A DNA stretch of 64,000 nucleotides from a virus. Shown here in pieces: positions 17,638-56,163 of this stretch. Each line of letters starts with the position of its first letter. The first letter of the stretch is position 1. The stretch is from IMG/VR virus record IMGVR_UViG_3300034101_004588, positions 1 through 64,000 of that record. One strand, written 5' to 3'. Below the pieces are notes generated by a model. That model saw only the letters and a program-made list of their open reading frames with translations. It searched no databases and had not been told where the DNA came from. Position numbers and translations under genes: made by a program.

Positions 17638-18087
17638 ATGAATTTTAATAATTATTATTTCTTAAAAGAAAACGTAAATAAATTTAATCCGGCTTGGCAG
17701 ATTGTAAGAACAGAAGCCAGAGACATTAAAGATGTAGATAAAAAAATATCTTTTGTTTTAAATTTTTTAAATAGAGAATCAAATAAACATAACTACGGAA
17801 GAGTACATAATTGGTTACGAATGACCAAACTAGGTTATAAATCAGAACCCGACAAAGCTGAAAAGTTTGATAAGGCTTTGGATAAGATAGAATCTAATAA
17901 AGAAAAATATTCTTCAGAAGAAGATACAAATGCAGATGTGTCTTCTATGAGCGACAGTAATTTGAAAAAGGTTTACAATGACCTAAAGAAAAGAAAATAC
18001 GGATTTCAAATTAAAACAGTGCCCAAGGCACATACTCAATTTTTAAATCAATTGGAAAGAGAAATAGAGAAAAGAAAATTAAGCTGA
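17638..18087 (+). CDS. Putative internal head protein with targeting-like N-terminus (149 aa)
   Basis: A basic, helical protein of unknown family. Its N-terminus (MNFNNYYFLKENVNKF) resembles T4 capsid-targeting peptides, which are short, aromatic and followed by a gp21-type LxE site; here L-K-E is at residues 9-11. The middle has N-H-N-Y-G-R-V-H-N-W-L-R-M and a Ser/Glu/Asp-rich linker near residue 100; the C-terminus is a Lys/Arg-rich helix (EREIEKRKLS). A packaged internal protein is an inference from the N-terminal pattern only. It overlaps the convergent minus-strand gene by 9 nt. Confidence 0.5.
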   Translation: MNFNNYYFLKENVNKFNPAWQIVRTEARDIKDVDKKISFVLNFLNRESNKHNYGRVHNWLRMTKLGYKSEPDKAEKFDKALDKIESNKEKYSSEEDTNADVSSMSDSNLKKVYNDLKKRKYGFQIKTVPKAHTQFLNQLEREIEKRKLS

Positions 18088-53542: not shown

Positions 53543-54115
53543 TTAAATTACAACCTTAGTGGTTGCTATAAAATTATCTTGCATCATTTCATAAAATAAA
53601 TCTTTAATATTTTTTGCTAAATGATCTGTCTTGTCTTCGTCTAAATTTAAAGAAAAAGCAAATGAAGGTGCTTTATTTCCAGCTTTAATATTCAAACCTA
53701 AATGACCTACAGCTACATTATTTTCAATAATTTTAGTTATGCTAACACTTGCTTTACCAAAATCTAAATCAGTCGGTTGTTTAACCATAATATCATCACC
53801 TCTTACGTCTACAATCAAATCTCCATAAATTTTATTAGTCAAATGTTTGCCTATTTCATTTGCAAATAATCTTTGAAAGAAAACTGCTCCTATAGGACAT
53901 ACGTTAGGGATTTCCCAGCAAAAATTCAAAGCATCTTCTGAATATATATAATCATTGTTTAATTTATCTTCTAAATCAATTAAATTATCTGTCACATCCA
54001 TTTTTCCTCTAAAAGCTATAATAACACCTAATGGGTTATATTCTTTCTTAAAGAAATTGTATCCAAATCTTTTATGTATTAAACTTCCGTTATAATCTTC
54101 TTTAAAATAATTCAT
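53543..54115 (-). CDS. DUF366-like protein, probable 7-deazaguanine pathway member
   Basis: A 190-aa protein with the succession I recall for DUF366: Y-N-G-S-L-I-H near residue 8, VIIAFRGKMDVTDNLIDLED near 31, IYSEDALNFCWEIP near 57, QRLFANEIGKHL near 81, D-V-R-G-D-D-I-M-V near 103, and ASVSITKIIENNVAVGHLGL with N-I near 121. The catalytic role of this family is not settled to my knowledge; homologues occur with queuosine or archaeosine genes. Here it is in one operon with an amidotransferase and QueC, which makes a base-modification role likely. The gap to the amidotransferase gene is 2 nt. Confidence 0.6.
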   Translation of the reverse strand: MNYFKEDYNGSLIHKRFGYNFFKKEYNPLGVIIAFRGKMDVTDNLIDLEDKLNNDYIYSEDALNFCWEIPNVCPIGAVFFQRLFANEIGKHLTNKIYGDLIVDVRGDDIMVKQPTDLDFGKASVSITKIIENNVAVGHLGLNIKAGNKAPSFAFSLNLDEDKTDHLAKNIKDLFYEMMQDNFIATTKVVI

Positions 54116-54117
54116 CT

Positions 54118-54768
54118 TTATAATATAAAATATTTTTGTTTTCTTTTCAAGTGTAAATCCAATTTTATAAAAGAATTTCCTAAATTGCTTTTATATATAG
54201 ATCCTTCTGGCATTAGTTGATTTATATCATCACATTCAACAGAAGAAAAGCAGGTTTTATCTTCATTCCAATATATACTATTATCTCCTCTCGCTACTAA
54301 TAAATCCTTTTTATCTGTATCATACAACCATATTCCAAAGGTTCCTTCAATATTCTGCAATACTTTTAAAAAAACTTCTTCTGAATTATAATCTGACTGA
54401 GAATATTGTTGATATAAAAAGGGTATCCATTCGCTATCTGTAGCAAATTTTATATTCCAAGTTTGTTCTAGGTGTTCTATATTGGTCAATATACCATTAT
54501 GGGCTGCTAATGCTTTGCCAAAAATAAACGGATGAATTCCTGAAAAATTTCTACCTTGTTCGTTTGTAGTAGGTGCTCTATTATGACCAATATAATAAGT
54601 TGCTTCTTCAAAAATCTTAAAAATAAAACCTTCTGATAAACCTTTGTGTATAACTATATCATTATCTTTTAAAAAAGCTAACCCTGTAGAATAATTGCCT
54701 CTATTTTGATTTGCTTTATATAGCTTATAAAGCTTCTCTTGATCATTAGACCCATAAATTGCACACAT
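54118..54768 (-). CDS. Class II glutamine amidotransferase domain protein
   Basis: A 216-aa stand-alone Ntn-type glutaminase. The N-terminal nucleophile is Cys2 (M-C-A-I-Y-G); further class II residues are YYIGHNRAPTTNE (Arg near residue 60), ALAAHNGILTNIEHL (Asn-Gly near 91) and FATDSEWIPFLYQQY (Asp near 110). It releases ammonia from glutamine for a partner enzyme. No synthetase domain is attached, so an acceptor enzyme must come from elsewhere. In archaea and some phages a comparable domain is fused to QueC (Gat-QueC) to amidate preQ0; QueC is encoded next but one. Coupling to the adjacent glycosyltransferase instead is possible. Confidence 0.85.
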   Translation of the reverse strand: MCAIYGSNDQEKLYKLYKANQNRGNYSTGLAFLKDNDIVIHKGLSEGFIFKIFEEATYYIGHNRAPTTNEQGRNFSGIHPFIFGKALAAHNGILTNIEHLEQTWNIKFATDSEWIPFLYQQYSQSDYNSEEVFLKVLQNIEGTFGIWLYDTDKKDLLVARGDNSIYWNEDKTCFSSVECDDINQLMPEGSIYKSNLGNSFIKLDLHLKRKQKYFIL

Positions 54769-54769
54769 A

Positions 54770-55480
54770 TTAACAGTATTTTTCTTTAAATCTTATAGCA
54801 CTTTTCTGCCATTGATCTGACATCATACTATCACCCAATCCAAAATGCAATACTTGAATAGGATAAACTCCTATTTTTAGTTTGTTTTGATTTGCTCTTA
54901 AACAAAAAGTCATGTCATAGTGATGAAAATCAAAATCTTCATCAAAGTAAGTTTTTGTTTGTAATAATTTATTAACATCAACTGCTATAAACAAACCATC
55001 AATAATTAAAGCTCTTGAATCTGTAGGTCCAAACGTTGTTGTCCATGATTTTTTATCTTTAGAATGTCCTACTTCTCCTACCATGTTTTCTCTGCTTGTC
55101 ATTAAATGCCATGCTTTCATAGGTGCTTGTAAATCACAGGTTTTAGCTCCTGCTAAACCAACTATGTCATATTTTGCAAACGCTAACTCAATCTTTTCAT
55201 CAAAAAATAAATCTTGTATTAAAACATCATCATGCATAAAAATTATTTTTTTATTAATATTTTCTTCACAAATAAATGAGTTATATAAAGCTGGTAATCC
55301 CAATTTATTTTCAAATACAATAGTAGATCTTTTTTCCCATCCAGATTTTTCTAAAAAGAATGCTGCGGGACTTTTTTTATAAAAATCCTCAGCTGTATTG
55401 GGAGTTGCTATGACTATTTTATAATTTTCTATATCAGAATTTGTAATTAAAGCTAATTGATAATTCATATTGGTTTGCAA
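54770..55480 (-). CDS. Family 2-like glycosyltransferase (GT-A)
   Basis: A 236-aa protein with the short GT-A plan: KIIFMHDDVLIQD near residue 75 (H-D-D-V as DxD metal site), KYDIVGLAGAKTCD near 102, ALIIDGLFIAVDVNKL near 157, DEDFDFHHYDMTFCLRANQN near 179 (acceptor and base region) and IQVLHFGLGDS near 210. It probably moves a sugar from a nucleotide donor; the acceptor is unknown. It is embedded between the QueC gene (16-nt overlap) and the amidotransferase (1-nt gap), so the sugar target could be a modified base, although surface or protein glycosylation is equally possible. Alternative start: Met at residue 5. Confidence 0.75.
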   Translation of the reverse strand: MQTNMNYQLALITNSDIENYKIVIATPNTAEDFYKKSPAAFFLEKSGWEKRSTIVFENKLGLPALYNSFICEENINKKIIFMHDDVLIQDLFFDEKIELAFAKYDIVGLAGAKTCDLQAPMKAWHLMTSRENMVGEVGHSKDKKSWTTTFGPTDSRALIIDGLFIAVDVNKLLQTKTYFDEDFDFHHYDMTFCLRANQNKLKIGVYPIQVLHFGLGDSMMSDQWQKSAIRFKEKYC

Positions 55481-56163
55481 TTATATTTTTTCCACGGAAT
55501 TTCTATTTTATATCGAATAGGATCTATATAAGAAGTTTCTATAAAACCCTGTATACGAGAAGAACAAGCAGAGCAGGTTCCACAAGCAATTTCTTCTCCA
55601 TTATAACAAGTATGAGTTTCTAAAAAATTTACATTATTACTAATACCATCATTAATAATATCTGCTTTTGAATATGTAATATAAGGAGCTTTAATTTCTA
55701 TCTGTTGTTTACGATTTAAACCTAAAATTTTATTCATATTATATAAAAAATCTAATGAACAATCCCAATGTCCACTGTGGGTATCTACTTCTGCCGCACC
55801 ATAATATATTTCTTTGGCATTTACATTTTCTGCAGCAGCAGCTGCAATAGATAAAAACATCATATTTCTATTAGGAACATAAGTTATTGGTTGAGCTTCT
55901 CCTACTACATCTTTTATATGAGGCACATCTTTATTTTTGTTTATTAAAGCTGATGTATCTGCTAGTTCCTTAAAAAAAGAAATATCTATTTTTTTATAAT
56001 TGATTCTTAATTTTTTACAATTAATTTCTGCTAATTCTAATTCTCGAGAATGTCTCTGACCGTAATAAAACATTATAGCTGAAACTTCTTTGCTTTTATT
56101 ATACACATTGTATAATAAACAAGTTGAATCTAAACCCCCACTCAATATTATGATTTTAGACAT
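55465..56163 (-). CDS. queC: 7-cyano-7-deazaguanine (preQ0) synthase QueC
   Basis: A 232-aa member of the PP-loop ATPase family. It begins IIILSGGLDSTCLLYNVYN (S-G-G-L-D-S PP-loop, residues 5-14). The middle contains ITYVPNRNMMFLSIAAAAAE near 93 and a D-C-S motif, and the C-terminal zinc site is ETHTCYNGEEIACGTCSACS (near 185-205, four Cys). It makes preQ0 from 7-carboxy-7-deazaguanine, using ATP and ammonia. The length is normal. No QueD, QueE or FolE is in this window. Phages use preQ0 derivatives to replace or modify guanines in DNA. It lies in an operon with a glycosyltransferase, an amidotransferase and a DUF366-like gene. Confidence 0.92.
   Translation of the reverse strand: MSKIIILSGGLDSTCLLYNVYNKSKEVSAIMFYYGQRHSRELELAEINCKKLRINYKKIDISFFKELADTSALINKNKDVPHIKDVVGEAQPITYVPNRNMMFLSIAAAAAENVNAKEIYYGAAEVDTHSGHWDCSLDFLYNMNKILGLNRKQQIEIKAPYITYSKADIINDGISNNVNFLETHTCYNGEEIACGTCSACSSRIQGFIETSYIDPIRYKIEIPWKKYNCKPI

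Follow-up and report, generated by a model that had tools for sequence, protein, structure and literature searches.

DUF366 as a companion of 7-deazaguanine DNA-modification genes in a large uncultured phage and of queC in bacteria

Phage DNA carrying 7-deazaguanine is known, and so are the type of DNA guanine transglycosylase (DpdA) described here and, from gene content, a glutamine amidotransferase (GAT) encoded separately from QueC. The closest cultured relatives of our DpdA are found in Flavobacterium phage immuto and in Campylobacter phage CP220. Like the phage studied here, immuto and CP220/CPt10 are large tailed phages with annotated QueD, QueC and GTP cyclohydrolase and a homologous DpdA (ours is 39% identical, at 2e-41, to the protein annotated as DNA guanine transglycosylase in immuto, and 35% identical to proteins of CP220-like phages), and immuto also encodes QueE. 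Unlike our phage, they yielded no DUF366 and showed no stand-alone GAT beside QueC; QueF and a PurN-like formyltransferase occur in immuto and were not found in our phage, and our phage has FolE2 where the immuto/CP220-type systems have FolE. The DNA of CP220 and CPt10 contains dADG (PMC8306585). Phages nt-1 and KVP40 resemble our phage in having QueC and then, directly, a stand-alone class II glutaminase of phrog_12378, yet nt-1 combines these with a DpdA2-type transglycosylase and a DUF5591/ArcS-like gene, and has no DUF366. Enterobacteria phage 9g likewise joins glutaminase and QueC chemistry with DpdA, giving dG+ (PMC6884629), but its Gat and QueC are fused, its DpdA is of another type and DUF366 is absent. 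As for DUF366 itself, the protein in our phage matches PH1223 of Pyrococcus horikoshii (PDB 2DDZ), which was deposited without a known function, and it shares its fold with biotin and lipoate protein ligases, while a ligase activity and a substrate of DUF366 are putative. What appears to be new is that DUF366 constantly accompanies the pathway in phages and adjoins queC in bacteria.

The window, meaning the whole stretch of DNA analysed, covers the first 64,000 bases of a viral record 210,956 bp long, from a large uncultured phage, all relatives of which are metagenomic. Four ORFs, encoding QueC, a GT-A glycosyltransferase (GT), a stand-alone class II (Ntn) GAT and DUF366, lie on its minus strand where a sequence-only reading had put them, and match their family models above cut-off (Table 1). 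Adjacent members of the four overlap by 16 bp or are separated by 1-2 bp, and the operon continues into clamp-loader-like and GroES-like genes; co-transcription of QueC, GT, GAT and DUF366 is plausible. Because the same four genes are seen together, in the same place, in 14 other viral loci, their order is not due to chance.

Table 1. Positions of the genes discussed, numbered along the 210,956-bp record.
Feature	Position	Strand	Properties
QueC	55465-56163	-	232 aa; PF06508 3e-58; TIGR00364 above cut-off
GT, GT-A glycosyltransferase	54770-55480	-	PF13712 above cut-off
GAT, stand-alone class II (Ntn) glutamine amidotransferase	54118-54768	-	216 aa; PF13522/PF13537 above cut-offs
DUF366	53543-54115	-	PF04017 2e-20; 73.3 bits against a gathering score of 29.9
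QueE	83545-84297	+	phrog_2076, 6e-39
DpdA	88216-89076	+	beside DNA polymerase; TGT fold
QueD (PTPS)	91249-91686	+	PF01242 2e-17; phrog_2389 2e-34
FolE2	95726-96685	+	PF02649 6e-66
Second PTPS/QueD-like gene	133267-133815	-	8e-29
PRTase	132819-133289		adjoins second PTPS
149-aa gene	17638-18087	+	structural region
Island of sugar-enzyme-like genes	about 70500-81700	+	one gene fucosyltransferase-like
ThyX	89061-89711	+	
RmlD-like reductase	126390-127259	-	
IMPDH/GMP reductase	127259-128281	-	

DpdA, QueD, QueE and FolE had been noted as missing from the window. This holds for the 64 kb and not for the genome, since comparison of the whole record with known phage proteins located every one of them: QueE, DpdA, two PTPS/QueD genes and, in the place of FolE, FolE2. 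GTP cyclohydrolase, QueD, QueE and QueC are thus all encoded in the record. Because QueE, QueD, FolE2 and DpdA sit elsewhere in the same record as the four-gene locus, the proposal that this phage makes a 7-deazaguanine modification of its DNA is well supported by gene content, with a DpdA of TGT fold and every gene of the preQ0 pathway at hand. The cysteines of QueE are spaced C-x3-C-x11-C, not as the normal radical-SAM CxxxCxxC, and the same spacing is seen in the relatives' QueE that were read. The second PTPS gene adjoins a PRTase gene and is missing in all six compared relatives. The phage also encodes an IMPDH/GMP reductase, a ThyX and an RmlD-like reductase.

The DpdA gene was detected by the reading of ORFs and by a weak phmmer signal, and was confirmed by homology, invariant aspartates and fold. 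Asp57, Asp88 and Asp227 are invariant in the alignment, and the AF2 model of the protein (pLDDT 86.8) has a TGT as each of its 46 best PDB matches. The CP220/immuto group, to which our DpdA is homologous, we take to be the subfamily that Cui et al. named DpdA3 in 2023, a system type associated with complete replacement of G. PHROG models of DpdA1 and DpdA2 find no match in the genome, and neither does the Pfam TGT model PF01702; this last negative result was discarded because PF01702 is equally blind to the known DpdA proteins of 9g and nt-1. A genome devoid of any transglycosylase had been named beforehand as an outcome that would speak against a modified guanine, and the presence of DpdA leaves that proposal standing.

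QueC of our phage keeps SGGxDS, YxQxHxxE, VPxRN and the zinc site, here C-x7-CxxCxxC (canonical spacing C-x8). The canonical YPDC motif reads HWDC in this phage and YWDC in nt-1. Tyr131 of YPDC is essential in E. coli (PMC13329287), and compared with canonical QueC (cluster 1 of PMC13329287) the phage protein has the other motifs and lacks YPDC with its Tyr131, so the product of the phage enzyme may differ. In the distant DUF366 phages (L238-L242) three of the four zinc cysteines of QueC are gone (TCYSNREDKLADADTPSSS), and QueC of immuto likewise lacks three of the four. Given HWDC in our phage and the loss of zinc cysteines in distant relatives, something other than plain preQ0 may be produced. 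QueC as a defence protein of the QatC/Cap9 type was also considered and rejected: the QatC model reaches 15.9 bits where 280 would be required, TIGR00364 is above its own cut-off, and no defence partner genes of QatC/Cap9 type lie beside QueC at the locus. The glutaminase has a full active site, with the N-terminal nucleophile Cys2 and a glutamine pocket of Arg64, Asn91-Gly92 and Asp111; it matches the glutaminase domains of GlmS and PurF, and its best PHROG is phrog_12378. GAT and QueC are separate ORFs and not a fused Gat-QueC protein. This separation is not new, as both genes adjoin in the cultured Vibrio phages KVP40, nt-1, PVA8 and 2.275.O. The full-length GAT of one distant relative (G023; L372:7975-8643, minus strand) reads ...NYICGIFG, and its start is seemingly not ATG, GTG or TTG.

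Which genes come and go with the modification? We compared all 277 ORFs of the genome with six relatives: two near ones with DpdA (G016, G017), a distant one with DpdA (G023), and three that share GT and are without DpdA or QueC (G032, G033, G034). Eighty of the 277 ORFs are present in both near DpdA-bearing relatives, and eight of these 80 are absent from all three pathway-free sisters: QueC, GAT, DUF366, QueE, DpdA, QueD, FolE2 and one 149-aa gene. The hypergeometric P of this co-absence, 2.5e-9, is descriptive only, because it comes from genomes that share ancestry and from a set that the pathway itself served to define. The slots emptied in the pathway-free phages can be read off directly: polymerase and ThyX without DpdA, RecA and DnaB without QueD, the SbcC-polymerase region without QueE, and primase, GT and clamp loader without QueC, GAT and DUF366. 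In a helicase tree rooted on phage G the distant DpdA-bearing phages form one clade, and the pathway-free phages fall into two separate branches among the near DpdA-bearing ones; most simply, the pathway was ancestral and was lost as a unit on two or more occasions, with repeated gain a less simple possibility. Gene co-loss therefore bears out the assignment of both DUF366 and the glutaminase to the pathway, and for DUF366 linkage to QueC in bacteria adds to it. The 149-aa gene is co-distributed in the near clade and may simply evolve fast. In the distant DpdA-bearing clade DUF366 lies away from QueC, and one genome also has QueF; together with the loss of zinc cysteines this means that the end product may vary among these phages.

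DUF366 occurs in at least 445 viral stretches of IMG/VR, and was found in no genuine cultured phage of INPHARED. The sole match there, 'Microcystis phage MaAM05' (MW495066), was rejected as a phage because it carries bacterial genes (secDF, fliM, glyS, murJ) and a DUF366 100% identical to that of Vampirovibrio contigs; the record looks like Vampirovibrio DNA. In bacteria we find 39 loci, nearly all from Gastranaerophilales/Vampirovibrionia, and in 32 of them DUF366 lies immediately 3' of QueC, on the same strand and within 20 bp; in an Oligoflexia genome one gene intervenes between the two. As nearly all of these loci belong to the Gastranaerophilales lineage, the bacterial link may represent few independent events. 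PF04017 also matches in Methanocaldococcus jannaschii and Methanosarcina acetivorans (three controls match, two of them over cut-off). All eight Gastranaerophilales genomes (G004-G010, G012) have TGT and QueD, with QueC at the fetched loci, and in none of the eight did QueF give a match, which raised the idea that DUF366 replaces QueF. As a general rule this was discarded, as Vampirovibrio-type genomes, the Oligoflexia genome and one distant phage carry both. Travelling with the pathway in phages and adjoining queC in bacteria, DUF366 looks like a missing 7-deazaguanine enzyme.

The AlphaFold model of DUF366 (pLDDT 90.7) has 2DDZ as its best match (1e-11), followed by many biotin (BPL) and lipoate (LplA) ligases at Foldseek E values of 7e-6 to 3e-4, and 2DDZ also comes up, at 6e-7, when the PDB is searched with a profile. 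The predicted structure thus has the biotin/lipoate-ligase fold, a fold that leaves the reaction unfixed. Invariant residues include Asp47, Glu49-Asp50, Glu68, Gln81-Arg82, Gly106-Asp107-Asp108, Lys121, His138, Asn142 and Lys187. Lys121 lies in K-x-SVSI, and the 2DDZ stretch RRGDDIYVNGRKLSISIAT resembles the ND..(x)GRK(I/V)xG motif of biotin/lipoate ligases, a likeness by which Lys121 would be the catalytic lysine. The literature searched, which did not extend to a possible mention in Cui et al. 2023 (NAR), holds no published function for DUF366 or PH1223. In an unrelated system, a DNA base bears a carboxyl that the phage ligase CmoY adenylates (PMC12783734).

We propose that the phage makes its own 7-deazaguanine and swaps it into its DNA, that DUF366 is a constant member of this pathway and that GT serves elsewhere, an explanation to which, as a whole, we assign a probability of roughly 0.6. 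It builds on observed gene content, folds, conserved active-site residues and co-loss. The base would be built from GTP and exchanged for guanine in the phage DNA. FolE2, QueD and QueE would produce 7-carboxy-7-deazaguanine (CDG); GAT would supply ammonia to QueC, which would convert the carboxyl to an amide (ADG) or a nitrile (preQ0) and might take it further, to an amidine (G+); and the DpdA of CP220/immuto type would put the base into DNA, where it may protect from restriction. DUF366 would most likely activate a carboxyl with ATP, its target being the 7-substituent or a precursor near the QueC step. Only tentatively do we go further and suggest that phages, archaea and Gastranaerophilales/Vampirovibrionia share in DUF366 a hitherto unrecognised 7-deazaguanine enzyme of biotin/lipoate-ligase fold. 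By way of an adenylate, it would couple the 7-carboxyl (or amide) of the base to a further group; the DNA of these phages would then contain an undescribed base, and the bacteria would have a related product, either in tRNA or as a free base.

Could the chemistry instead be entirely the known one, QueC and GAT yielding ADG, preQ0 or G+, with DUF366 a mere support (a chaperone, a regulator or a binding protein) that leaves the base unchanged? Folds like that of BirA can also be those of regulators. KVP40 and nt-1 also have GAT beside QueC, nt-1 DNA contains mainly dPreQ0, with dG+ and dADG (PMC6884629), and CP220-like phages, in which no DUF366 was found, reach dADG with the same type of DpdA. 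However, the invariant lysine of K-x-SVSI, together with numerous acidic and polar positions that never vary, gives DUF366 a catalytic look, and DUF366 is tied to the pathway as strictly as QueE; we consider a purely supporting role unlikely.

The sequence-only reading had raised a glycosylated or amidated 7-deazaguanine; in the glycosylated case, GT would add a sugar to the inserted base as the T4 enzymes do on hydroxymethylcytosine. GT does sit within the operon in 14 of 14 QueC-bearing near relatives; in five records of a distant clade a GT homologue directly follows GAT in another genomic slot, overlapping it by 4 bp in three of the five; and in one relative (L231 / G017:C1 near 66000) a sugar-nucleotide epimerase gene, GDP-mannose-epimerase-like, is inserted between GAT and GT. 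IMG/VR holds 147 relatives of GT, however, and 70 of the 80 loci fetched have it in the same slot, between primase and clamp loader, with QueC, GAT and DUF366 all missing. DpdA and QueC queries match in none of 17 GT-only records, which were the larger ones (six exceed 140 kb), against eight and thirteen matches, respectively, in 18 DUF366-bearing records used as positive control, and both branches of the helicase tree that lack the pathway have retained GT. GT therefore does not keep to genomes with base-modification genes and is independent of the modified base: it is probably a bystander that serves something else, and glycosylation of the 7-deazaguanine has become improbable. By sequence, GT has no significant homologue in the PDB. 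Apart from the operon GT, the genome has a large island of sugar-enzyme-like genes that varies among relatives. Least credible of all is that these are auxiliary metabolic genes for queuosine or archaeosine in tRNA, for although tRNA pathways also use QueC, QueD, QueE and FolE2, and DUF366 is found in bacteria and archaea having a tRNA TGT, the genome shows no tRNA TGT by PF01702, with the blindness of that model noted above, and yet its DpdA is of the type seen in dADG phages, and its pathway genes are scattered singly among those of DNA replication, DpdA between DNA polymerase and ThyX and QueD between RecA and DnaB.

With GT probably unrelated, a misleading lead is removed, and attention turns to DUF366. 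Its structure (2DDZ) has been solved since 2007 without a function, and its co-loss with the pathway and its place behind queC now give a concrete, testable hypothesis. DUF366 may explain how the pathway is completed in bacteria that have queC, queD and tgt and no queF. Through it, a new DNA base might also come to light in an abundant group of uncultured phages.
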